Below are positions 4,071 through 39,410 of a stretch of DNA of 42,945 bases, piece by piece. The stretch is taken from contig JAQTPK010000023.1 of the NCBI GenBank assembly GCA_028712885.1, forward strand, positions 1-42,945. The letters run 5' to 3'. Position numbers and translations under genes: made by a program. Source of the stretch: Syntrophales bacterium. Lineage in GTDB: Bacteria > Desulfobacterota > Syntrophia > Syntrophales > UBA4778. The notes beneath the pieces were generated by a model. That model did no database searches and was not told the origin of the DNA. It saw only the letters and a program-made list of their open reading frames with translations. Every line of letters starts with the position of its first letter. Within the stretch, counting starts at the first letter, position 1.

Positions 4071-4073
4071 ATA

Positions 4074-4304
4074 GGGACACTTCCCATATTTTCATCGCCC
4101 GGCGTAAGGCATGGTAAATAGCGTGCTTTTACACTAAAATACCAGTTCGATAAAACCCGGAAGCGGCAAGCCTCGAAGATGAGCGAACCGCACCCGCAGG
4201 GGAAAGTCACCGGTTCTATATCTGCGGAGTGCAATGAATCTAATCGGTTGCAGCAGGGGATCATGGACTCGGAATGAACCGGGCGAAAATATGGGGAGTG
4301 TCCC
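4074..4304. mobile_element. MITE/REP-like element with GGGACAC terminal inverted repeats, copy 1
   Basis: The left end is GGGACACTTCCCATATTTTC (4074-4093) and the right end is its inverted copy (4285-4304) with one mismatch, 19 of 20. A CGCCCGG/CCGGGC match extends the repeat inward. The element is about 231 nt, carries no ORF and starts 3 nt after the mlaA stop. A second element with the same termini lies at 32350-32514 with unrelated inner sequence. Shared termini with differing cores and no transposase suggest non-autonomous elements moved in trans, perhaps by a REP-associated Y1 transposase elsewhere; that agent is inference. This element fills most of the 354-nt gap at 4071-4424. Confidence 0.7.
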
Positions 4305-4354
4305 TAAGTATGAAACAGCGGAAGTGCTGTCCCGGTGATTCCGTGCAACTAATC

Positions 4355-5602: not shown

Positions 5603-6346
5603 ATGTCCGGCCATTCGAAATGGAGCACGATCAAGAGGAAAAAAGGCGCCGCAGATGCGAAGCGCGGAAAGCTGTTCACCAAGATACTTAAGGAAATCCA
5701 GCAGGCGGCCCGGTCCGGGGGGGACCCGGACGGGAACCCGAGATTAAGGCAGGCGATCCTGGCCGCCAAAAACGAAAACGTCCCTAAAGACAATATCGAG
5801 CGCGCGATCAAGAAGGGAACGGGCGAACTCGGCGGCGCAGCTATGGAAGAAATCATTTACGAGGGATACGGCCCCGGCGGAGTAGCCGTCCTGGTGGAAG
5901 TAATGACCGACAACAAGAACAGGACGGTTGCAGACCTGCGGCATTTTTTTGCGAAACACGGGGGCAACCTCGCGGAGACCGGAAGCGTCTCCTGGATTTT
6001 CAAGAAGAAAGGCAGCATCCTGATCGATAAAAAGGGGATCAGCGAAGACAAGCTCATGGAGGCGGCGCTCGACGCCGGCGCGGAAGATGTGCTGGAAGAG
6101 GATCACGAATTCGAGATCATAACAGAGCCGGTCTCTTTCGAGAGCGTGAGAAAAGCGATAGAGCAGGCCGGGTTCAAGTCTCTCAACGCGAATATCAGCA
6201 TGATGCCGCAGACCACCGTGCGCGTCACCGATGCCAAGGCCGAGCAGATGCTCAAGCTCATGGAACGGCTCGAGGACAATGAAGACGTGCAGAACGTCTA
6301 TGCGAATTTCGATATTCCCGACGAAGTGATGGAACGATTAGGGTAG
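5603..6346 (+). CDS. yebC: YebC/PmpR family regulator or translation factor
   Basis: The 247-residue product has the invariant start [25 protein letters not shown], then NPRLRQAI, the [14 protein letters not shown] core and the [20 protein letters not shown] middle domain, so it is full length. The family (YebC/TACO1) was described as DNA-binding regulators, and some members help translation of difficult motifs. It directly precedes ruvC, an arrangement common in many bacteria. The start ATG 5603 has GAGGAA upstream. A 150-nt gap with a hairpin separates it from ruvC. Confidence 0.95.
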
Positions 6347-6356
6347 GGTTCAAGGG

Positions 6357-6380
6357 GTCGAGGATTCGAGGTTTCGAGTG
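6357..6380. repeat. TTCGAGG tandem words after yebC
   Basis: Three abutting octamers (GTCGAGGA, TTCGAGGT, TTCGAGTG) begin 11 nt after the yebC stop. The same word occurs twice at 35-56, about 6.3 kb away. Confidence 0.5.
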
Positions 6381-7578: not shown

Positions 7579-7789
7579 GCGTCCTTGCGTCTGCTGCGTC
7601 TATTGAGTCTATTGCGTCATAGCGTCCATCGCGTTCTGCGGTGTCTATAGGTTCGCTATGCCGTACATTTCAACGGGCTCAAACTTCAAAATGGGACAGA
7701 TGCAGCGGCGCAGCAAACGGACGCTTTAACGAACATACGCAGACGGTTCAACAGACGCAAAGGACACAATGGACGCAACAGACGCAAAG
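7579..7789. repeat. TTGCGTC/GACGCAA word palindrome running into ruvB
   Basis: The left arm (about 7579-7640) is built of GCGTC words, for example TTGCGTCTGCTGCGTC at 7585-7600. The right arm (about 7737-7789) holds the inverse, for example GACGCAACAGACGCAA at 7772-7787 (15 of 16 to the left arm). The right arm contains the ruvB start codon and its first seven codons. The stretch AATGGACGCAACAGACGCAA recurs exactly near 33992-34011. Confidence 0.7.
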
Positions 7790-8791
7790 AAAAGAACCGT
7801 GCAGCCCCAGAAGATGGAGGGAGAAGAGGGGTTCGAGATTTCCATCCGCCCCAAGACCCTTTCGGAGTATATCGGGCAGGCGAAGATAAAGGAGAATCTG
7901 TCCGTTTTCATGGAGGCGGCGCGGCGCCGGGGCGAGGCCCTCGATCATGTGCTCCTGTACGGTCCGCCCGGCCTGGGTAAAACCACCCTCGCCTATATAA
8001 TGGCCCGGGAGATGGGTGTCGATATCAGGGTGACTTCCGGCCCGGTCGTTGAGAACAAAGGAGACCTGGCGGCTATCCTGACCAATCTCCACGATCATGA
8101 TATTCTCTTCATCGACGAAATTCACCGCCTGCCAGGCACAATTGAGGAAGTACTTTACCCCGCGATGGAGGATTACTATATCGATATCCTGATCGGGCAG
8201 GGTCCGTCGGCGAGGACGATGAAGCTCCAGATCCCGAAGTTCACGCTGGTGGGGGCGACTACGAAGGCGGGGCTTTTGACATCGCCGCTCCGAAACCGGT
8301 TCGGCATGAGCTTCCGTCTGGATTACTATGCCCCGGAAGAGCTGCACCGGATAATTGTGAGATCGGCGGGGATCCTGTCCATTCGGCTCGAGCCCGAAGG
8401 CGCAATGGAGATCGCCCGTCGCTCCCGCGGGACGCCCCGCATCGCAAACCGGCTCTTGAGAAGGGTCCGCGATTTTGCCGAAGTGGAAGGCGACGGCAGG
8501 GTCGACCGCCGGGCTGCGATCGATTCCCTCGAGCGGCTTGAAGTCGACCATAAAGGCTTCGACCAGATGGATCGCAAAATCCTTCTGACCCTTATTGAAA
8601 AATTCGACGGCGGCCCCGTCGGCATAGAAAGTCTCTCCCTGGCTATCGGGGAAGAAAAGAGCACGGTCGAAGACGTCTACGAGCCTTTTCTGATACAGGA
8701 GGGCTATCTCCATCGTACGGCGCGGGGCCGAATGGCTACGCGCCTGGCGTACGAGCATTTCGGGAAGGCCCCGCGGAAAGAACTTTTCTGA
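7769..8791 (+). CDS. ruvB: Holliday junction branch migration ATPase RuvB
   Basis: RuvB is the AAA+ hexamer that drives branch migration on RuvA-bound junctions. The 340-residue product has Walker A GPPGLGKT (65-72), Walker [10 protein letters not shown], sensor and arginine-finger region [16 protein letters not shown], and a C-terminal winged helix with RTARGRMAT. The N-terminal peptide MDATDAK is encoded inside the GACGCAA word repeat. Its Shine-Dalgarno AAAGGA is a variant of the same word, so the repeat appears to have supplied the start region. Full-length homology begins at about residue 17 ([21 protein letters not shown]). Confidence 0.96.
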
Positions 8792-13745: not shown

Positions 13746-15110
13746 ATGAATTATAAGACTATACTCGTTGTCGACGACGAAGAGAGCATCTGCCAGTCCC
13801 TTAAGGGAATTCTGACGGATGAGGGCTACAGAGTCCTCACCGTCCTGAGCGGCGAAGAGTCCCTTCCCATTATTCAGGATGAGCTTCCCGATCTTGTCCT
13901 CCTGGACATCTGGCTTCCCGGGATGGACGGGATAGAGATACTGAAACTGATCAAAGCCGATAATCCGCAGCTGCCGGTTATCATGATGTCCGGCCACGGC
14001 ACGATCGAGACGGCGGTGAAATCGACGAAGCTCGGCGCCTTCGATTTCATAGAAAAGCCGCTTTCACTCGATAAGGTCGTCCTGATCATCCGCCATGCCC
14101 TGGACCTGGTGCGCCTGGAGGACGAAAACAAGCTGCTCAGGCAGAAATATCCCCAGGAGTACGAACTGACGGGTGAGAGCAGGGCGATAGAGGACCTGGT
14201 CGAAACGATTTCCATCATCGCCCCGACAAATGCCTGGATCCTGATCATGGGGGAAAACGGGACGGGAAAGGAACTCGTTGCGCGTTCGATACACCGGCAG
14301 AGCAAAAGGAGCCGAAGGCCTTTCATCGAAGTGAATTGCGCGGCCATTCCCGAAGACCTCATCGAAAGCGAATTGTTCGGCCACGAAAAGGGCTCATTCA
14401 CGGGCGCGACCCAGATGAAGAGGGGAAAATTCGACCTTGCCAACGAAGGCACGATCTTTCTGGATGAAGTCGCGGATATGAGTCTGAAAGCGCAGGCCAA
14501 GATCCTCCGCATACTTCAGGAAAAAAAATTCGAGCGGGTCGGGGGGACCCGGCTGATCGAGACGGACGTCCGGGTCATTGCGGCGACGAACAAGGATCTG
14601 GAGAAAGAAATGGAGGAGGGGCGGTTCCGGCCGGACCTCTTTTACCGTTTGAACGTCATACCCTTGTTCATCCCGCCGCTGAGGGAAAGAAAAGAGGATA
14701 TCCCTCCACTGGTCAAACGATTCGTCAAGGAATTCTCGTTAAAGGAAGGGAAAGAGGAAAAAGGGATCGCGCCGGAGGCGCTCGATTTCCTTATGAATCA
14801 TAACTGGCCGGGAAATGTCCGGGAGCTTAAGAATCTTATAGAACGGCTGGTCATCCTGACCTCGTCCGACACGATAGCGGTGGACGACATTCCCCCGTTC
14901 TTCAAGACGGAAAACGGCAGGATGGGCGAATCGGTTTTTGATTCAGATTTATTCAAAACGGCCAAGATGGAATGGGAAAAGAAATTCATCCTGCGCAAGC
15001 TCCAGGAGAATAACGGGAATATCTCGAAAACGGCGGACCTGATCGGGATGGAGCGCAGCAACCTTCATCGGAAGATAAAGAGCTACGGGCTGGAACCCAA
15101 AAAGGAATAA
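13746..15110 (+). CDS. NtrX-like sigma-54-dependent response regulator
   Basis: The 454-residue product has a receiver domain (acidic pair D10-D11, phospho-acceptor Asp54 in LVLLDIWLPGMDG, Lys in FIEKP), an AAA+ sigma-54 activation domain with Walker A GENGTGKE and Walker B IFLDEV, and a C-terminal Fis-type helix-turn-helix (NNGNISKTADLIGMERSNLHRKIKSYGL). The sigma-54 contact loop reads GSFTGA instead of the usual GAFTGA. The partner kinase lies upstream. The start ATG 13746 has AAGGA upstream, directly next to the word palindrome. The target genes cannot be read here. Confidence 0.94.
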   Translation: MNYKTILVVDDEESICQSLKGILTDEGYRVLTVLSGEESLPIIQDELPDLVLLDIWLPGMDGIEILKLIKADNPQLPVIMMSGHGTIETAVKSTKLGAFDFIEKPLSLDKVVLIIRHALDLVRLEDENKLLRQKYPQEYELTGESRAIEDLVETISIIAPTNAWILIMGENGTGKELVARSIHRQSKRSRRPFIEVNCAAIPEDLIESELFGHEKGSFTGATQMKRGKFDLANEGTIFLDEVADMSLKAQAKILRILQEKKFERVGGTRLIETDVRVIAATNKDLEKEMEEGRFRPDLFYRLNVIPLFIPPLRERKEDIPPLVKRFVKEFSLKEGKEEKGIAPEALDFLMNHNWPGNVRELKNLIERLVILTSSDTIAVDDIPPFFKTENGRMGESVFDSDLFKTAKMEWEKKFILRKLQENNGNISKTADLIGMERSNLHRKIKSYGLEPKKE

Positions 15111-15243
15111 ATCCTGAATCCCAAGCACCAAATCCCAATTAATTTCAAAATTCAAATATCCAAATCCAAAACTCGACGTTTTCGGACTTTGAATTTCGAC
15201 ATTAGGATTTGTTTGGGATTTGTTATTTGGGATTTGGGATTTG
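15111..15243. repeat. AATCCCAA/GGGATTTG word palindrome between convergent genes
   Basis: The left arm (15111-15178) is made of AATCC, CAAATCC, AATTTC and AATTCAAAT words. The right arm (15184-15243) carries the inverse words TTTGAATTTCG, AGGATTTG and GGGATTTGGGATTTG. The palindrome spans the gap between the NtrX-like gene and the epimerase. The epimerase's last codons (KKQIPNPK, stop at 15223-15225) lie within the right arm. Confidence 0.65.
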
Positions 15244-16176
15244 TTTTTTATACCATTCCACAGTCTGCTCCAGTCCGGAATGAAATGAAGTTTCCGGATT
15301 GAAGCCGAGAAATTCCCTGGCCAGGGAAATGTCCGCCATGGAAAAGCGGATATCTCCCGGCTGCGGATCCGTGAACAGGGGATTGCCGTTTTTTTTCGTG
15401 ATGGCGGAAATCTCCCGCAGCAGGTCAAGCAGGCTGTGGCTCCTGTTGCAGGCGATATTGAAGGCCAGGCCGGCCGCCCTGCCGTCCGCTTCGCAGGCCT
15501 TGATGTTCGCATTTACCACGTCCGAAACGCAGATAAAATCCCTCGACTGAAGTCCGTCTCCGTAAACGGTCGGCCTCTTCCCCTCCAGGAGCGCCTGAAT
15601 GAACTTCGGAATAACCGCTGCGTAGTCTGAATGCGGGTTTTGTCTTTTTCCGTAAACGTTGAAATACCTGAGCGCGACCGTCTCCAGTCCGTACAATTCA
15701 CGGAAAAGAGCGCAGTTAATCTCGCCGATCAGTTTGCTCGAACCGTAGGGGGACATGGGCTCCAGTCGTACGGATTCCGGCAGGGCCGATCCGGAATCCC
15801 TGTTCCCGTAAACGGCGGCGGATGAGGCGAAGACGAACCTCTTCGCGCCGGCATCGCGGGCGGCAACGAGCATGTTCAGAGTTCCGGTGACGTTGATATC
15901 ATGGCAGAGGATAGGGTCTGCAACGGATCTGGACACCGAAACGAGGGCTGCATGGTGCAGGATAAAGTCGGCCCCTTCGGCTGCCTTCCGGCAATCGGCG
16001 AGCCCTTGGACGTCCCCCTCGATAACTTCTATTCTCTCGGAGCCCGGAAAAGAGAGGTTTTCCCTTTTTCCCGTGGAGAAATTGTCGAGAATGCGGACTC
16101 TTTTGCCCCTGCGGACAACTTCTTCAGCGATATTGGAGCCGATGAATCCGGCGCCGCCTGTTATCGTGTAGAGCAT
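15223..16176 (-). CDS. NAD-dependent sugar-nucleotide epimerase (extended SDR)
   Basis: The 317-residue product has the Rossmann start TGGAGFIGSN (6-15), the ASSAAVYG motif (118-124), catalytic Tyr144 and Lys148 (YGSSK), and RYFNVYGKRQNPHSDYAAVIP. The last pattern is typical of UDP-GlcNAc/UDP-glucose 4-epimerase-like enzymes (WbpP/GalE group). It probably makes a surface-polysaccharide sugar. It is the last gene of a minus-strand run with a flippase-like gene 21 nt upstream. The C-terminal residues are encoded by the word repeat, so the natural end may have been replaced. The exact substrate is uncertain. Confidence 0.88.
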   Translation of the reverse strand: MLYTITGGAGFIGSNIAEEVVRRGKRVRILDNFSTGKRENLSFPGSERIEVIEGDVQGLADCRKAAEGADFILHHAALVSVSRSVADPILCHDINVTGTLNMLVAARDAGAKRFVFASSAAVYGNRDSGSALPESVRLEPMSPYGSSKLIGEINCALFRELYGLETVALRYFNVYGKRQNPHSDYAAVIPKFIQALLEGKRPTVYGDGLQSRDFICVSDVVNANIKACEADGRAAGLAFNIACNRSHSLLDLLREISAITKKNGNPLFTDPQPGDIRFSMADISLAREFLGFNPETSFHSGLEQTVEWYKKQIPNPK

Positions 16177-16197
16177 ATGTTGTATGTAATGGATTTT

Positions 16198-17169
16198 CTA
16201 CTTCCTGTCTACTCTTAAATCTGACAACCGGAAGTGATTGAAAGGCAAAAAAATTGCGCCCAGCACTACCGTGAAGCCCAAGCTTATGAAATGAAATATT
16301 ATGGCATAGGTAAGGGCGTCGGCTTTGGAAATGCCGAACAGAGTCAAGCCGAGTACGCAGAAAAAGTGCCAGTTTCCGATATACCCGGGCGCGGTGGGGA
16401 TAGTGATGCCGATGATCAGTATAACCATGACGATCAAGGCCGCGAGCACGGACAAATTGAAGCCGAACGCCTGGAACAGGATATAAATGACCAGGGCATG
16501 CAGAAACCAGATCAGGATGGACAGAAGAGATACATTGAGAATAAGCTTCGGGTCCGTGATTATCTCGATCCCGTCAATGAAGTGATGGATTACCCGGTTC
16601 AGCAGGGCGCCCCATCGGGCGGGGAGAATCCCCGTAAACCGGTCGAACATTCGCAGAGACGGCTCCCTCCTGAATATGAGCAGAAGGATGAAACCAAGCA
16701 CGCCGAGAGTCACGCCGAGAAAAACAAGGCTGGCGTTAACGAGCCAGACCGGCAGGGGCGTGAAAAGAAGAATGACAAAAAATATCAGGAGGACGGAAAG
16801 GCAGTCGAAGACCCTTTCGATGAACACGGTCCCCAGCGCAGCCGTGAGGCGGATATTGGCCTTTCCGGAAACCAGGTACGGCCGCGCCAGCTCCCCGATC
16901 CTTGCCGGGATGATGATAAGCGCCAGCGCGCCGACGTTGGTGATCGAAAAGAGCGAGAACTGGTCCAGCTTTACGATCGGGCTGAGCAACACGCCCCAGC
17001 GGTAGGAGCGGATTAGCTGAACCAGGAGAAGAACAATTAAAACGGGAACGATATAGCCGGCCTTCAGCGACCGGAAGCCCGCCGCGATCGCCTCGAAATC
17101 GATTCCCCGGAAAGAGAAATAAAGCAGGATTGCGCCTATTACTGCGCCGAAAACAATATTTTTTTTCAT
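16198..17169 (-). CDS. Flippase-like integral membrane protein (YbhN/LPG synthase TM family)
   Basis: The 323-residue product has about eight hydrophobic helices. It carries LVQLIRSYRWGVLL, TNVGALALIIIPARIGELARPYLVS and TVFIERVFDCLSVL, the conserved pattern of the UPF0104/lysylphosphatidylglycerol synthase transmembrane family. Members are linked to lipid or polyisoprenoid-sugar flipping. It lies 21 nt upstream of the epimerase and 20 nt downstream of the lipoprotein gene, so the three probably form an envelope operon. The substrate is unknown. Confidence 0.85.
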   Translation of the reverse strand: MKKNIVFGAVIGAILLYFSFRGIDFEAIAAGFRSLKAGYIVPVLIVLLLVQLIRSYRWGVLLSPIVKLDQFSLFSITNVGALALIIIPARIGELARPYLVSGKANIRLTAALGTVFIERVFDCLSVLLIFFVILLFTPLPVWLVNASLVFLGVTLGVLGFILLLIFRREPSLRMFDRFTGILPARWGALLNRVIHHFIDGIEIITDPKLILNVSLLSILIWFLHALVIYILFQAFGFNLSVLAALIVMVILIIGITIPTAPGYIGNWHFFCVLGLTLFGISKADALTYAIIFHFISLGFTVVLGAIFLPFNHFRLSDLRVDRK

Positions 17170-17189
17170 GCTGCTCCGACCGGCCCCGA

Positions 17190-17603
17190 TTACTTTTTCT
17201 TTGCCAGGTTTTCGGACAGTTTGTCGTGCAGCATCTTCGAGGACAGCTTATTGCCGAATAGTCCGACCCGGATGGCGACGGTCGTCAAATTCTTTTCCTT
17301 GTAGCGGATCTTGATCAGAACTTTTTCATCATTGATGACGACGTTTATGGTTCCCTGCGCGATTTCCCGGACCGGTTCCACATCGGTGCCCTGCATATCG
17401 GCTATCGTTTTTTCCGCGGCTGCCCAGACCTTATCGATAGAGGCGTTATAATCCGTCGTCATTTCGCCGTTGATATACACGTATGTTCCTGAAACACCGG
17501 CCCCTCCGGCGGCAACCGGCACCATCATCCAGCATCCGGAGGACAGTGCGGCCATGGCCAGAATCCCGAACAACAATACAATGCCCATTCTGAACTTCAG
17601 CAT
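17190..17603 (-). CDS. DUF3568-like lipoprotein
   Basis: The 137-residue product has a lipoprotein-like signal ending SSGC (Cys24), a Gly/Ala-rich linker (VAAGGAGVSGTYVYINGE), then an alpha/beta domain (KVWAAAEKTIADM ... GTINVVINDEKVLIKIRYKEKNLTTVAIRVG). This is the look of DUF3568-type small lipoproteins. It leads the minus-strand run with the flippase-like gene. A terminator upstream (17640-17667) separates it from the protease gene. No enzymatic motif is visible. Confidence 0.78.
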   Translation of the reverse strand: MLKFRMGIVLLFGILAMAALSSGCWMMVPVAAGGAGVSGTYVYINGEMTTDYNASIDKVWAAAEKTIADMQGTDVEPVREIAQGTINVVINDEKVLIKIRYKEKNLTTVAIRVGLFGNKLSSKMLHDKLSENLAKKK

Positions 17604-17631
17604 ACTTCGGCGCTCCTTCCTGCATCAGGCT

Positions 17632-17667
17632 GAAAGAAAAACCCACCCTGGTAGTTTGGGGTGGGTT
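17632..17667 (-). terminator. Intrinsic terminator of the Lon-like gene
   Basis: On the minus strand AACCCACCC (17667-17659) pairs with GGGTGGGTT (17648-17640) over a 10-nt loop. It is followed by TTTTCTTTC. It lies 38 nt after the Lon-like gene's stop and ends that transcript before the lipoprotein gene. Confidence 0.75.
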
Positions 17668-17705
17668 GTACTACAGCTGAAACTTAAGGGCAAACGGAAA
17701 AATGA

Positions 17706-20177
17706 TCACACTTTATCCGTTTTTTTCATCTCTTCCTCGCTGAATTTCTTAAGGCTCTCAATAATGGATTTCAGCCTGGAGTCCACCAGATCGTTAACGG
17801 TTCCCTTCGGATAGGCGCCGTTCACTTTCTGGCCCGCGCTCACGCCGGTCAGTATCTCAATGCCCTGGTCTATGCTCTTTATCGGATAGATGTGGAACTT
17901 GCCTTCGCTGACTGCCTTTACCACGTCCTTGCGGAGCATGAGATCGGGGACGTTCTGGACGGGAATCATTACCCCCTGCCGGCCCGTCAAACCTTTAGCC
18001 CTGCAGACGTCGAAAAACCCTTCGATCTTCCAGTTCACTCCCCCGATCGGCTGGATATCCCCCTTCTGGTTGACCGATCCCGTAACGGCTATATCCTGGC
18101 GCAGCGGCAGCTCCGAGAGGCTGGAGAGGATGGCGTAAACCTCGGTGGATGAGGCGCTGTCCCCGTCAACCCCCGAATACGACTGCTCGAAGGCGATGCT
18201 TGCGCTCATGGTGAGGGGTTTGTCCTGCGCATACTTGCCGCGGAAGTACCCTTCCATGATCAGGACGCCCTTGTCGTGCGTGCTTCCCGAGAGCTTTGCT
18301 TCCCTCTCAATATTAATCACGCCCGCCCTGCCGATTGACGTCCTCGCCGTAATGCGGGTAGGCCTGCCGAAAGCATGATCGCCCAGATCATATACGGAGA
18401 GCCCGTTTACCTGTCCGGTCACTTTCGCTTCCGTGTCGATCAGGATTATTCCATCGTCGATAAGTTCCTGAATCTTGTCCTCGATCAGTGAAACGCGGTT
18501 TGTCCTTTCCTCTATGGCCTTGTCCACGTGATCTTCGTCGACCAGCTCTTTCCCTTCCCTTTTTGCCCAGTAACTCGCTTCCCGGATCAGATCGGCGATA
18601 TCGCTGAACCTCGTGGACAGTTTTTTCTGCCTTCCCGCCAGCTTCGTGCCGTGCTCGATGACCGTGGCCACGGCCTTTTTATTGAAGTTAAGGAGCTTCT
18701 CGTCGTCTATGATTTTTTTTATGAAGCAGATATAGTCCTGGACATGCTTGTCCACGTTCGGCATTTCCGTGTCGAAATCGGCCTTGGTTTTGAAAATCTT
18801 TTTGAAATCGTCCTCAAGGTTGTAGAGGAGATAGTACATATACGGGTCTCCGATCATCACGACCTTCACGTCAAGTCCGATCGGCTCCGGCTTGATGGCC
18901 GTCGGCATGAATCCATACGGATCGTACGGCTGGAGATTAAGAAGCCGGTTTTTCAGCGTGCGCTTCAGCATCGGCCATACGCCGCCTTCGATCAGGGCGT
19001 CAAGGGCGCTGAAGACGATAAACCCGCCGTTCGCCCGCAGGATCGACCCCGCCTTGATCTTGGTGAAATCGGTTTTCCAGAAGCCGGCGCGGTCGATTTC
19101 CCGCTCGATCGTGCCGAAAAGATTCTTGTAATTCGGGTCGGTCTCCAGAATGACGGGAGTCTTCTTTGTCTGGGAGTTATCTACCAGGACGTTGACCTTG
19201 TATTCTACGTACCTCGGCTGCTGCGGCGGTATCATGATCGGCATTCCCCCTGCCGCCGCCGCCTGGGGCTGCTGTTCGTCCTCGCGCTCCCTGAAAATCT
19301 TCAGGTTGGAAAGGATGTTCTCCTGGACCTCGTCCAGATAGCTGTTCATCTTTTCGTTGCTGTTGCCGTATTTCATCCGGATATCGGAAACTATGCCGCT
19401 GACGGCGGGCAGCCCTGTTCTGTACTCGAGCTGTTCCACTTCTTTTCGCAGCTCGCGCTCGAGCTGGCGTGTCTCCCTCATCAGGGAATCCAGCTCGACC
19501 CGGAGGTCGATTATCTTTCTGCGTATCTTGTCCAGCTCTTCCCGGCTGAATTTGTCCTGCTCGGCGAGAGCTTCCAACTGCTCGATGGGGACCGGCTTGC
19601 CTTCGTACAGGGGCACTATGTCCTGCCGGGTGAAGGGGCCGATCTGAAACTGGACGAGCTGGAAATTTTCCTTGTATATCTTTTCGTTAAATTCCCGGAA
19701 AAGCTCCTTCTGCTTCGTCCGGTACTTCTCCATCATCTCCTCGGTCTCTTTCTTGAATGACTCGCTCTCGAAAATGAACGGAATCTGCCTTTTCAGAAAC
19801 GAGACCATCTCGTCCATATCCTCCTGGAATTTTTTTCCCATTCCGGCAGGCAGGGTTATTACTTTGGGCATATCCGGATTTTTGAAATTGTTCACATAAC
19901 AGATGTCGTCGGGTATACCCCGGCCGAGATCCAGCTGCTCCAGAAGAGCCATGATGGTGGAAGTTTTGCCCGTTCCGGCGCGGCCGGAGGCGAAAATATT
20001 GTAGCCGGGGCTGTCGATCTGCAGACCGAGGGTGATCGCCTTTACGGCGCGCTCCTGGCCGATTATCCCCTTGTAGTAAGAACATTCTTTCGTCGTTTCA
20101 AAACGGAGGGCGTCAGGATCGCAGATCCATCTAAGCTTGTCGACCGGTACCTCCTCAAACTGAGTTCTGTTATTCAT
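17706..20177 (-). CDS. Lon-like ATP-dependent protease (AAA_32 plus S16 domains)
   Basis: The 823-residue product has an N-terminal ATPase part with Walker A GRAGTGKT (about 63-70), a long charged coiled-coil region (about 150-300), a second AAA portion and a C-terminal Lon S16 protease domain. The catalytic dyad is Ser674 (GDSAS) and Lys717 (GGVNWK), 43 residues apart, the same spacing as in E. coli Lon. It belongs to the YcbZ/LonB-like group, not classical LonA. The start ATG 20177 has a strong GGAGGG. The frame stays open upstream to 20294, but that extension (repeated FTFHFSP) is translated word repeat and should not be included. It should degrade substrates in the cytosol. Confidence 0.93.
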   Translation of the reverse strand: MNNRTQFEEVPVDKLRWICDPDALRFETTKECSYYKGIIGQERAVKAITLGLQIDSPGYNIFASGRAGTGKTSTIMALLEQLDLGRGIPDDICYVNNFKNPDMPKVITLPAGMGKKFQEDMDEMVSFLKRQIPFIFESESFKKETEEMMEKYRTKQKELFREFNEKIYKENFQLVQFQIGPFTRQDIVPLYEGKPVPIEQLEALAEQDKFSREELDKIRRKIIDLRVELDSLMRETRQLERELRKEVEQLEYRTGLPAVSGIVSDIRMKYGNSNEKMNSYLDEVQENILSNLKIFREREDEQQPQAAAAGGMPIMIPPQQPRYVEYKVNVLVDNSQTKKTPVILETDPNYKNLFGTIEREIDRAGFWKTDFTKIKAGSILRANGGFIVFSALDALIEGGVWPMLKRTLKNRLLNLQPYDPYGFMPTAIKPEPIGLDVKVVMIGDPYMYYLLYNLEDDFKKIFKTKADFDTEMPNVDKHVQDYICFIKKIIDDEKLLNFNKKAVATVIEHGTKLAGRQKKLSTRFSDIADLIREASYWAKREGKELVDEDHVDKAIEERTNRVSLIEDKIQELIDDGIILIDTEAKVTGQVNGLSVYDLGDHAFGRPTRITARTSIGRAGVINIEREAKLSGSTHDKGVLIMEGYFRGKYAQDKPLTMSASIAFEQSYSGVDGDSASSTEVYAILSSLSELPLRQDIAVTGSVNQKGDIQPIGGVNWKIEGFFDVCRAKGLTGRQGVMIPVQNVPDLMLRKDVVKAVSEGKFHIYPIKSIDQGIEILTGVSAGQKVNGAYPKGTVNDLVDSRLKSIIESLKKFSEEEMKKTDKV

Positions 20178-20228
20178 CGGTCCCTCCTGATAGAAGTAGA
20201 TGCCTGATAAAAAATAGTACAGTTTTAA

Positions 20229-20372
20229 TGAAAAGTAAAAAGTAAAAGGTGAAAAGTGAAAAGTGAAAGGTGAAAGGTGAAAGGTGAAAAGCAAAAAGTA
20301 AAGCAGGTTGCCAACGACAGGATCTCGAGTCAGACTTGCCCGCAGAGTATCTTTTTACTTTTCACTTTTAAG
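20229..20372. repeat. GTGAAAA/CACTTTT word palindrome
   Basis: The left arm (20229-20306) is an array of AAAAGTA, AAAGGTG and AAAAGTG words. The right arm (20351-20372) is the inverse (CTTTTTACTTTTCACTTTTA). Between them is about 45 nt of unrelated sequence. It fills the gap between the TVP38-type gene and the Lon-like gene. The right arm encodes the TVP38-type protein's last residues (KSEK, then stop). Confidence 0.65.
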
Positions 20373-21029
20373 TCCTCGGACGGCGGCCAGGATCTTTTCC
20401 CGGTAAAAGTAGCCTATGAGAAAAATTATCGCGGAAATGCCCATGAGGATAAAGAAAGCGGCATTCTGCTCGTTTCTGACGCAGCTGCCGCTGATGGAGA
20501 GGAGAATTGTGCCGAAGAGTCTTCCCGCCGTGGAGATGATGAGAAACGTCCCCAGGGGCATGTGGCTCAATCCCATTATATAGCAGAGGGCGTCTTTTGG
20601 AAAACCGGGGATGAGAAACAGGACAAATGAAACGATGATACCCTGATGCTTCATGAAATGATCGTACTTCTGGATAATCCCGGCGTTGACCGCCCTTTCC
20701 ACAAACGGCAGCCCGAACGTCCGCGCGAGAATGAAGGCGATCCACGATCCGATGCTGAGGCCGATTGTGGAATAAATGGTGCCGAGCACGGGGCCGTACA
20801 GGTATCCCCCGATCAGGCCGGTCACCTCCCCGGGCACGGGGGCGACCAGCACCTGCATTATCTGAAGCAGAATGAATACGACAATCGAATAGGGCCCGAA
20901 TGAAGTCAGAAAGTAGACGAGCTTTTTCCGGTCTACGAAGTAGATGTATAAATTAAAATAATAAAGCAGGTAAACAGCCGCGGCAACAGCGATTATCAGG
21001 GCGGCTATCCTCAGGGGGGTTTTGGGCAT
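20355..21029 (-). CDS. TVP38/TMEM64 (VTT-domain) membrane protein
   Basis: The 224-residue product has an N-terminal helix, then the VTT-domain pattern: LQIMQVLVAPVPGEVTGLIGGYLYGPVLGTIYSTIGLSIGSWIAF, with the G-x(6)-G-x-x-Y-G motif, and later FLIPGFPKDALCYIMG. It has about five transmembrane helices. VTT/DedA-like proteins are linked to lipid scrambling or flipping. The C-terminus (GLKSEK) is supplied by the word repeat. It is encoded upstream of the Lon-like gene on the same strand, with the repeat between them. No substrate is deducible. Confidence 0.86.
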   Translation of the reverse strand: MPKTPLRIAALIIAVAAAVYLLYYFNLYIYFVDRKKLVYFLTSFGPYSIVVFILLQIMQVLVAPVPGEVTGLIGGYLYGPVLGTIYSTIGLSIGSWIAFILARTFGLPFVERAVNAGIIQKYDHFMKHQGIIVSFVLFLIPGFPKDALCYIMGLSHMPLGTFLIISTAGRLFGTILLSISGSCVRNEQNAAFFILMGISAIIFLIGYFYREKILAAVRGLKSEK

Positions 21030-32330: not shown

Positions 32331-32349
32331 GCGAGGATTCAGAAAATCA

Positions 32350-32514
32350 GGGACACTTCCCATATTTCCCGTCAGGAAACGACCAGTATCCTAAATACCG
32401 GAAATAATGTCAGATCGTCAGCAATGGCCATATCCTCCGGCCATGAGGACTTTTTTGTTTCACAAATGGGAAACCGTCTGAGCGTTACGGTTTGGAAAAT
32501 ATGGGAAGTGTCCC
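32350..32514. mobile_element. MITE/REP-like element with GGGACAC terminal inverted repeats, copy 2
   Basis: Left GGGACACTTCCCATATTT (32350-32367) and right inverse AAATATGGGAAGTGTCCC (32497-32514) match 18 of 18. The flanks extend the pairing (AAAATCA outside left against TGGTTTT outside right). The core is about 130 nt, with an internal ATGGCC/GGCCAT hairpin and a T6 run, and no ORF. It sits 20 nt after the small hypothetical gene. It shares its ends with the element at 4074-4304 but not its core. Confidence 0.7.
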
Positions 32515-32602
32515 TGGTTTTTTAGATCTTATGGGCATTCCGGTGAACACGCAACCCTGAGCCTGCCTGTGAGATTGGGTTATCTGGAGTGTTCGGACTT
32601 CT

Positions 32603-33425: not shown

Positions 33426-33821
33426 TCATTCTGATAGAAATTTCAGAAGGAAGCGGCGGGTTCGGGGGCCGTCGAATTCGCAGAAGAAAACGGCCTGCCA
33501 GGTGCCGAGGACGAGATCCCCGTTTTTCACGATCACGGTCTCGGAGGCGCCCACGAGGGAAGACTTGATATGGGCGGCCGAATTCCCTTCCGTGTGGGAG
33601 TAATTGTCGTTCCAGGGAATCGCTTTGTCAAGCTCCTTCAGGATGTCACGGGGAACGCTCGGGTCGGCGTTTTCGTTTATCGTCACGGCAGCCGTTGTGT
33701 GCGGAACGAAAACGCAGCAGAGTCCGTTCCTGATTCCGCTTTCCGCCAGCGTCGACCGGATCCGGCCGGTGATGTCTATCATCTCGCTGCGGGCATTTGT
33801 CTTGATTGTGAACTGTTTCAT
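33426..33821 (-). CDS. YjbQ/UPF0047 family protein, copy A
   Basis: The 131-residue product carries the UPF0047 signature: CCVFVPHTTAAVTINENADPSV, then DNYSHTEGNSAAHIKSSLVG and GTWQAVFFCEFDGPR. The His residues in HTTAA and the HIKSS stretch are conserved ligands or catalytic residues of the family, which has been linked to thiamine-phosphate synthase activity. The start ATG 33821 has no clear Shine-Dalgarno; the word-repeat palindrome starts 6 nt upstream. A second family member lies about 400 nt away on the other strand. Its cellular role is unproven. Confidence 0.88.
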   Translation of the reverse strand: MKQFTIKTNARSEMIDITGRIRSTLAESGIRNGLCCVFVPHTTAAVTINENADPSVPRDILKELDKAIPWNDNYSHTEGNSAAHIKSSLVGASETVIVKNGDLVLGTWQAVFFCEFDGPRTRRFLLKFLSE

Positions 33822-33827
33822 GATTGC

Positions 33828-34016
33828 GCGTCAGGTGTCAGGTGTTGGGTGTTGGGTGTTGGGTGTTGGGTGTTTTCATTGTTTAATATTATCATGTGCA
33901 AATTCAGCAGGCAATAGAGATTCAGGAAAGAGTAGAGATGTATATCCCGCTTTTCCCCTCGCCTCAATGCCTGATACCTGATACCTGACGCAATGGACGC
34001 AACAGACGCAATAGAC
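33828..34016. repeat. Composite word palindrome with a GGTGTTG heptanucleotide array
   Basis: GCGTCAGGTGTCAGGTGT (33828-33845) is opposed by ATACCTGATACCTGACGC (33974-33991), 16 of 18. Inside the left arm the heptamer GGTGTTG repeats four times and a fifth degenerate time (33841-33875). The right arm continues into GACGCAA words (33989-34011), the same word as near ruvB, and shares AATGGACGCAACAGACGCAA with 7768-7787. Thus two word families join here. It fills much of the 398-nt gap at 33822-34219. Confidence 0.7.
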
Positions 34017-34084
34017 TCGATTTAATTTTCGCGCATTTCCCGCCTTTCCCTCATTTCAGCACGCAAATAAAACCTGACCCGAAA

Positions 34085-34165
34085 TTGCACACAAATATTG
34101 GACTTTCGATATTGGAATTTCCTTGAGATTGGGTGCTTGGGATTTGGGATTTCAAAAAAAGTATT
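34085..34165. repeat. GGGATTT-word tract before yjbQ copy B
   Basis: Words ATATTGG, TTTCGATATTGG, GAGATTGGG and CTTGGGATTTGGGATTT lie in line, the same word family as the palindrome at 15111-15243. Only one arm is seen, followed by A7. It ends 55 nt before the yjbQ copy B start. Confidence 0.5.
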
Positions 34166-34219: not shown

Positions 34220-34639
34220 ATGAAATCCTATAGAAAGGAAATCTGGTTTAAGGTGCCGACCCGCAAGGCTTTCATAAACATCACCACGGATGTCCAAAAG
34301 ATGGTGAAAGAGAGCGGCGTCAAAGAGGGCCTTGTCCTGGTCAACGCGATGCATATCACCGCTTCCGTTTTTATCAACGATAACGAGCCGGGGCTTCACC
34401 AGGATTATGACGAGTGGCTGGAAAATCTTGCGCCCCACAAGCCCATCTCCCGCTACCGCCATAACCTTACGGGGGAAGCCAACGCCGATGCCCACCTGAA
34501 GCGCCAGATCATGGGAAGGGAGGTCGTAATCGCCGTAACGGAAGGAAAACTGGACTTCGGTCCCTGGGAGCAGATCTTCTACGGGGAATTCGACGGCCGG
34601 CGGAAAAAAAGGGTACTGGTCAAGATAATCGGGGATTAA
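34220..34639 (+). CDS. YjbQ/UPF0047 family protein, copy B
   Basis: The 139-residue product is full length for UPF0047. It has [42 protein letters not shown] and [56 protein letters not shown] (34210-34214) lies 5 nt before ATG 34220, so this start is chosen over GTG 34208. It shares the fold with copy A but is clearly diverged (HIT in place of HTT). The two are divergently transcribed from the repeat-filled gap. Function as thiamine-phosphate synthase is a family-level suggestion only. Confidence 0.9.
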
Positions 34640-39257: not shown

Positions 39258-39373
39258 ACCTGAGATTTCTTGCCTTGACGAAGGTAAAATAGATTGATAA
39301 AAAACAGATACTATCATTCTGATCATCAAGAATAAACGGGTCCAGAATTTTCTGGAGGATATAGTCTGGTCGG

Positions 39374-39410
39374 GCCGCCAGCTGAAATTTTTTTCAGCCG
39401 GCGGCTTTTT
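39374..39410 (+). terminator. Intrinsic terminator after the ArsA-like operon
   Basis: GCCGCC-A-GCTGAAA, loop TTTT, TTTCAGC-C-GGCGGC, then TTTTT (39406-39410). The stem is 13 bp with one A-C mismatch. It lies 117 nt after the membrane-anchored protein gene. The 270-nt gap also holds the palindrome at 39426-39487. Confidence 0.88.

Follow-up and report, generated by a model that had tools for sequence, protein, structure and literature searches.

Word repeats at the 3′ ends of genes in a Syntrophales bacterium and the short protein tails read from them

Gene ends inside repeats in the window

The window, the whole stretch of 42,945 nucleotides (nt) analyzed here, is one contig (C28) of the 97 in the 2.93 Mb assembly of a Syntrophales bacterium (G000), which is listed as 99.2% complete. 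This genome holds arrays of degenerate 7-, 8-, and 9-base words, mostly intergenic and often in inverted pairs, and our subject is how such arrays meet the ends of genes, starting from an NAD-dependent epimerase and a TVP38-type membrane protein. A sequence-only reading of the window had proposed that the C-termini of both proteins and one edge of RuvB are encoded by repeats, and that the growth of repeats replaces gene ends up to the conserved domain. The features concerned are listed below.

15223-16176, minus strand: NAD-dependent epimerase gene (Pfam Epimerase at residues 4-242 and GDP_Man_Dehyd at 5-305 of 317 amino acids, aa)
15223-15243, minus strand: final residues QIPNPK and TAA stop of the epimerase, read from repeat words
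15106-15245, no strand: AAATCCC-family inverted element filling the convergent spacer from an NtrX-like regulator to the epimerase
20355-21029, minus strand: TVP38-type membrane protein gene (VTT domain, residues 65-182 of 224)
20355-20369, minus strand: final residues KSEK and TAA stop of the TVP38-type protein, read from GTGAAAA words (AAA AGT GAA AAG TAA)
20229-20302, no strand: left arm, TGAAAAG words, upstream of a Lon-like gene
20351-20372, no strand: right arm, CACTTTT words, at the TVP38 stop

The epimerase ends in ...VEWYKK-QIPNPK-stop with its TAA at 15223-15225, and its final 21 nt (CAA ATC CCA AAT CCC AAA TAA) lie inside the AAATCCC array. The final 24 nt matched the tiled word at 19 of 24 positions, which was equalled by 2 of 20,544 sampled genomic windows on one strand. 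The stop codon of the NtrX-like regulator (15108-15110) is also inside this element, and the RNA fold of 15108-15246 reached -47.5 kcal/mol. The TVP38-type protein ends in ...AAVRGL-KSEK-stop, where the right arm equals the left arm at 18 of 22 positions (p = 0.0005 against shuffles of the arm), a match as good being found for 4 of 20,547 sampled genomic 22-mers. Both C-termini, stop codons included, were thus confirmed as repeat sequence.

Relatives of the two proteins were sought in 60 genomes, the own genome included, with an epimerase-family match in 59 and a TVP38 match in 41; the relatives listed for comparison include none of the same genus. Close relatives of the window epimerase number only five, at 57-61% identity, with a drop to 38% for the one that follows. 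Four of these were aligned with the window protein, and the fifth, from G033, was excluded, its matched frame holding a TAG. Residue W308 is the last one invariant in the five aligned sequences, and G033 also has W there. It is followed by 9 residues in the window, by 7 each in G001, G049, and G058, by 18 in G002, and by 3 in G033. The epimerase stop touches arrays of other word families in G001, G049, and G058, and no array was found at this stop in G002 or G033. The tail is thus unconserved whether or not words are present. We infer that the words have displaced no more than about 4 unconserved residues and lengthened the protein by about 2, so that replacement up to the domain was too strong a claim for this gene. 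In an AlphaFold2 model based on the five sequences (mean pLDDT, the predicted local distance difference test, 80.8), the last helix spans residues 298-312, the predicted IPNPK segment lies beyond it, and block 311-317 has a mean pLDDT of 64.

The 29 TVP38 relatives extend 0-42 residues beyond the last aligned column, with tails that are alike only inside genera, and words (two 7-base units) stand at the stop in 1 of the 29. From these sequences, the native end of the TVP38-type protein cannot be named.

Samples and array detection

The own-genome sample comprised 760,166 bases with 679 called genes, and that of G001, a relative of the same family, comprised 365,769 bases with 300 called genes. 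Genes were called with a home-made caller, which was able to choose starts, not stops. Arrays were defined by periodic self-matching at a score threshold of 10; the right arms at TVP38 (score 9) and RuvB fall below this threshold and are outside the array counts.

When self-matching was scored at shifts of 4-13 over 360 kb, period 7 stood out and periods 8 and 9 were weaker, nearly all of it outside genes. At a score of at least 12, there were 31 intergenic or partly intergenic period-7 matches and 1 coding match; at a score of 10, 41 of 43 period-7 arrays were intergenic or partly intergenic, and 8- and 9-base arrays were present too.

Arrays overlap stop codons more often than expected by shift

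Among the 213 arrays of the own genome and G001, 33 overlapped a stop codon, 3 overlapped a start codon, and 11 were internal to genes, whereas random local shifts of 40-400 nt gave expected values of 6.6, 7.3, and 133.3. For arrays reaching at least 9 nt into a gene, a slightly stricter count gave 10 at stops, where shifting predicts 4.3, and 1 at starts, where it predicts 5.2. Among own-genome spacers 60-300 nt long, an array was present in 16 of the 34 convergent slots, 43 of the 184 tandem ones, and 4 of the 33 divergent ones (convergent versus divergent, p = 0.003), counts that depend less on start calls than the stop and start overlaps do. Spacers with arrays also folded better relative to shuffles, with a median z of -3.0 (n = 63) against -0.8 (n = 188) for those without (p = 4e-6). 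G exceeded C in 75 of the 93 arrays adjoining a 3′ end and C exceeded G in 15, the AAATCCC element at the epimerase being an exception. In G002, two arrays were detected in 40 kb, one of them internal.

The scarcity of internal arrays could reflect pure tolerance, with elements landing or growing anywhere and surviving in spacers and dispensable gene tails, so that they would be associated with stops without any function. Tails lying beyond the listed domains and C-termini varying among repeat-free relatives fit this explanation. It sits poorly with the 33 stop overlaps observed against 6.6 by shift, with the share of stops among non-internal placements (16.3% observed, 8.3% by shift), and with the excess of convergent over tandem and divergent slots. 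We regard tolerance as a minority possibility to be taken seriously. Our preferred reading, to which we assign a probability of roughly 60% as a whole, is that the word elements are 3′ hairpins resembling repetitive extragenic palindromic (REP) elements, with occasional overrun that adds short tails to proteins.

Depth of overlap and ortholog stops

The 33 stop overlaps fell into two depth groups, 24 of them extending 1-11 nt into the gene and the other 9 extending 21-28 nt. Twenty-two reached less than 9 nt into the gene (the shallow class) and 11 reached 9 nt or more (the deep class). An example of the shallow class lies in the window.

6345-6378, no strand: 8-base words in contact with the TAG that ends the YebC-type gene at 5603-6346, a conserved stop

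Ends were compared in 61 reciprocal-best pairs between the own genome and G001, a pair being counted as shallow if in one genome an array lay within 10 nt of the stop or overlapped the gene by less than 9 nt. On the sequence-only reading, taken here as growth by slippage, arrays extend into the gene and consume its end as far as the conserved domain, a view that repeat-free orthologs with the same stop would contradict. Such orthologs were found for part of the genome: the stop column was common to 7 of 12 shallow pairs, against 14 of 46 array-free pairs (p = 0.10). YebC, DUF4390, CarB, and others retain their end despite an array pressed against it, and in the proteins ending in FVYK-stop (DUF4390) and PLNFM-stop, the column is kept with an array in one genome only in each case. 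NtrX keeps its stop column as well, but the window has the 15106-15245 element there, missed by the array detector, and because both genomes bear an element, NtrX is no case of presence versus absence.

In the three deep pairs, by contrast with the shallow ones, no stop column was common, although one of them is doubtful (AcrB type, 43% identity, with a G001 side of 239 aa). This result fits replacement, as do the eleven repeat-coded tails described below and the differences between genomes in the arrays at the same slot. The predominance of shallow overlaps and the stop columns kept beside them speak against slippage, and many mirrored pairs with unlike loops, as judged by eye, are not a product of one array slipping. 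Unaligned C-terminal residues were not in excess near arrays (median 2, against 4 far from them, p = 0.58), which leaves a general erosion of gene ends unsupported. We consider slippage improbable as the general process.

At the YebC stop of G001, there is a long inverted repeat of another kind (L121 1846-1975, GGCTGTTCAAAAACGCC...).

Repeat-coded protein tails

At least 9 nt of words were present at the 3′ end in 11 of 1006 proteins, or about one gene in a hundred sampled. The repeat-coded tails of this deep class are given below.

QIPNPK: epimerase
about SSEFRVQS: histidine kinase
AGRLRS: AcrB type
AGGLRG: transglutaminase type
GKGRKA: NUDIX
EVGKMRS: MFS transporter of G001
EVEKMRS: LpxB of G001
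KLGS: AcrB-type frame of G001
ERRKAKG: LpxD of G001
shorter repeat-coded ends: an APH-family protein and a KDO-transferase-type protein

The best Pfam stretches listed stop short of the tail in all 12 repeat-tailed proteins scanned, TVP38 included. Four proteins from three families and two genera end alike (RLRS, KMRS, KMRS, and KLGS), and a motif for this shared tail occurs in 5 of the 1006 proteins, 4 of which owe it to words. That such tails are adaptive, for example as a C-terminal tag or degradation signal common to several proteins, is nevertheless highly improbable, because the likeness is a one-frame reading of an 8-base word, other word families yield different tails, and the motif was chosen after the fact.

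A property of the words would keep such tails short. A stop triplet in a period-7 or period-8 word passes through all three frames over three words (21 or 24 nt), which tends to make an added tail self-limiting. Of 279 frames that enter an array from the stop side (arrays of three genomes), 121 closed within 24 nt, compared with 186 of 696 frames in own-genome spacers that lack arrays, and the deep overlaps of 21-28 nt agree with the arithmetic. These counts are modest support for self-limiting tails. Own-genome stops beside arrays also lean to TAA, with TAA/TAG/TGA at 26/11/10 versus 98/48/137 (p = 0.002).

Interpretation

With the word elements read as REP-like 3′ hairpins, the words would be the arms of short elements, degenerate 7-, 8-, or 9-base arrays that often form inverted pairs folding as hairpins. 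Such elements may settle, or be kept, directly behind stop codons, in the manner of REP elements, the bacterial interspersed mosaic elements (BIMEs) they form, and the heptameric repeats of Xanthomonas. Most overlaps would merely touch the stop, and in the third of the 33 where an arm reaches 9-28 nt into the gene, translation would continue through the words to an in-frame stop that tends to come soon. The outcome would be a C-terminal extension of some 2-8 residues past the folded domain, the epimerase and TVP38 tails probably being two cases of it. The observations themselves comprise the array positions, the tails, the comparison of orthologs, and the excess of folding; a role of the hairpins at mRNA 3′ ends, insertion or spread as their source, and neutrality of the tails are what this reading would imply.

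Several points weigh against it. The caller may undercount start overlaps; 7 of 914 genes had an alternative upstream start within an array, too few to close the gap between starts and stops. The scarcity of arrays in divergent slots could mean promoter protection and not a 3′ role, and the lean to the stop side in tandem slots was non-significant (42 of 68, p = 0.12, and 22 of 30, p = 0.10). Tiled words with a stop were not enriched (41, against 43.6 expected for shuffled words). Frame closing compared with shuffled arms gave 70 versus 49.5 for period 7 and 52 versus 48.5, hardly more, for period 8. The shift in stop usage was absent in G001 (p = 0.38), and the shared-tail motif was defined only after the tails had been seen.

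A broader proposal, that period-7/8 word hairpins are widespread portable gene enders that seek 3′ ends, provide stops in every frame, cap any overrun gene, and leave lineage-specific C-terminal tags on unrelated proteins, is speculative and in our judgment unlikely. If it were true, the same words turning up sporadically in different phyla would mean repeated reinvention or transfer of caps.

The counts now available on how intergenic word repeats shape protein ends point mostly to contact with the stop, with deeper reach tending to be capped at a few codons by the word period. For annotation, they advise caution with start calls near arrays, as in the Lon-like gene and RuvB, and with apparent C-terminal motifs there, either of which may be repeat sequence; similar tails on unrelated proteins do not have to reflect a shared function.

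Comparison with known repeats

REP elements are linked to a Y1-type transposase. No match to Y1_Tnp (PF01797) was found in the own genome, where a miss is possible at 99.2% completeness, and each of six other genomes searched had 1-4. Because G002 and G033 are among the genomes with matches, the presence of the transposase does not track the arrays. In E. coli, REP/BIME palindromes lie near stops, and earlier work cited in PMC12306157 is said to link those within 15 nt of a stop with ribosome stalling or reduced translation. The palindromes here share the position near stop codons, but REPs have one consensus and the present arrays have many word families.

The heptameric G-rich repeats of Xanthomonas and Nostoc (GGGAATC and GGGGATT) have one word type per genus and were studied as quadruplex-forming, and in Xanthomonas, transcripts start or stop more often at those that form quadruplexes (PMC4692102). 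They resemble our arrays in the 7-base unit, inverted pairs, strand polarity, stop overlap, and preference for convergent over divergent spacers (PMC4692102). Tandem 7-base intergenic units, a G-rich strand pointing away from the gene (the coding strand behind the stop), and stop overlap were all found here. The differences are the many word families and the additional 8- and 9-base words of the present genome. A G3 quadruplex motif occurs in only 12 of 63 own-genome array slots, and GGG tracts are absent from the arms at TVP38 and RuvB. The available text of PMC4692102 makes no mention of repeat-coded protein tails for the Xanthomonas and Nostoc repeats. On the features described there, the Xanthomonas heptameric repeat is the nearest match in print.

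Repeat overrun that adds residues to proteins already has precedents. The enterobacterial RU-1, RU-2, and RU-3 and the Rickettsia palindromic elements are mobile palindromic repeats of this kind (PMC2759123, PMC2229807), and the in-frame fusion by which they add residues is found here too. In the amidase ECA3499, RU-1 seems to eliminate the normal stop, and the added part lies beyond the conserved domain (PMC2759123), a direct precedent for a repeat that seems to remove a stop and extends a protein past its domain. RU elements are 103-168 bp long with a set sequence and an open frame (PMC2759123, PMC2229807), whereas the words here are periodic, and a frame that runs into them tends to end after a few codons. 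The TAACTGA direct repeats of marine Beggiatoaceae are heptads whose forward copies supply a stop in each of the three frames, and 13 of the sets run over an upstream stop codon; unlike the often inverted arrays here, they consist of one word and lie mostly just upstream of start codons (PMC4679880).

Word families and their spread

By eye, the sample contains about ten or more different word families, and many arrays are mirrored or inverted pairs with unlike loops. The pattern TTTGGGATTTGGGATTT had 120 genomic sites within 2 mismatches, against 8 for the reversed pattern. The AAATCCC family, with 52 own-genome sites within 1 mismatch and none in 97 of 99 other genomes, is a local burst. A 24-base AAATCCC array occurs in records of many phyla (at least 111 stretches). 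A candidate element common across phyla, with AAATCCC and an AAGCACC irregularity, was unsupported: the TTTGGTGCTTGGGATTT core (2 mismatches, either strand) was in 7 of 111 stretches, against 1 of 111 for the reversed control. An inverted partner of this core was present in 11 of the 111 fetched stretches.

The 8-base GAGAAGNT family had 92 (overlapping) sites in the own genome, 81 in G001, and representatives in 10 more of 59 other genomes, some with 1-4 sites, where reversed controls gave 0-4. It is no artefact of fragmented assembly, because G025, an assembly of 5 contigs, holds 85 sites. One 24-base reading of 8-base words had no match in a viral-contig scan.

In a scan for inverted arms, 43 of 260 spacers reached a score of 34, against 4 after shuffling; three of the 43 were runs of N. 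The 36 own-genome rows held about 17 word pairs by eye, the others being terminator-like or other hairpins. Nine slots of three genomes, compared by eye, are too few to support a claim that word elements recur at the same slots across genera beyond expectation.

At positions 33830-34152 of the window, in the spacer of the divergent genes 33426-33821 and 34220-34639, both of which match one G002 protein, words of the GGTGTTG, CCTGATA, and GACGCAACA families are stacked together with an arm of AAATCCC, making four families. In Desulfonema magnum (L164 3070-3303), words shift stepwise from GAAACTT through GAGATTT to GGGATTT in one array, which looks as if they mutate into each other.

Starts inside repeats

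Repeats also reach the start side of two genes in the window.

17706-20177, minus strand: Lon-like (LonB/LonC type) protease gene, likely start ATG behind AGGAGG
20178-20294, minus strand: in-frame upstream extension of the Lon-like gene through the repeat (MLFTFHLSPFTFHFSPFTF...), probably untranslated
7582-7790, no strand: 9-base-word inverted element between ruvA and ruvB (arms 7582-7618 and 7754-7790)
7769-7789, plus strand: repeat-coded start codon and MDATDAK of RuvB, 9-base words

Taken mechanically, the longest frame of the Lon-like gene extends across the TGAAAAG words and begins at a TTG within the repeat, at 20294. The ATG at 20177 was the choice of the caller, and the first residue of the protein read from there aligns with the first residue of both same-family relatives, whose starts are as read by the same home-made caller. 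The upstream frame is a trap for start calling, as had been suggested. The RuvB edge held up as well, the start codon and MDATDAK of this gene (7769-8791, plus strand) being read from GACGCAACA/GACGCAATG words; the ribosome-site-like AAAGGA directly upstream is word sequence too. In 18 of 29 relatives (30 loci of 60 genomes), the RuvB ATG lies 25 or 27 codons ahead of the reference column. The window ATG, in words, lies 30 codons ahead; the alternative starts are a GTG 20 codons and an ATG 15 codons ahead of that column. A second case is the 819-aa gene at 37336-39795 of contig C97 (L301 17303-17341), where the called ATG is in 9-base GACGCAATG words and the opposite end overlaps GGTCTTA words, so that repeats are present at both ends.

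Other features of the window

An inverted repeat like a miniature inverted-repeat transposable element, GGGACACTTCCCATATTT and its complement, was present at 4072-4306, starting one base after a stop codon, and at 32343-32521. An nhaA-I riboswitch was found at 39338-39383, with 38.6 bits against an Rfam gathering score of 37.

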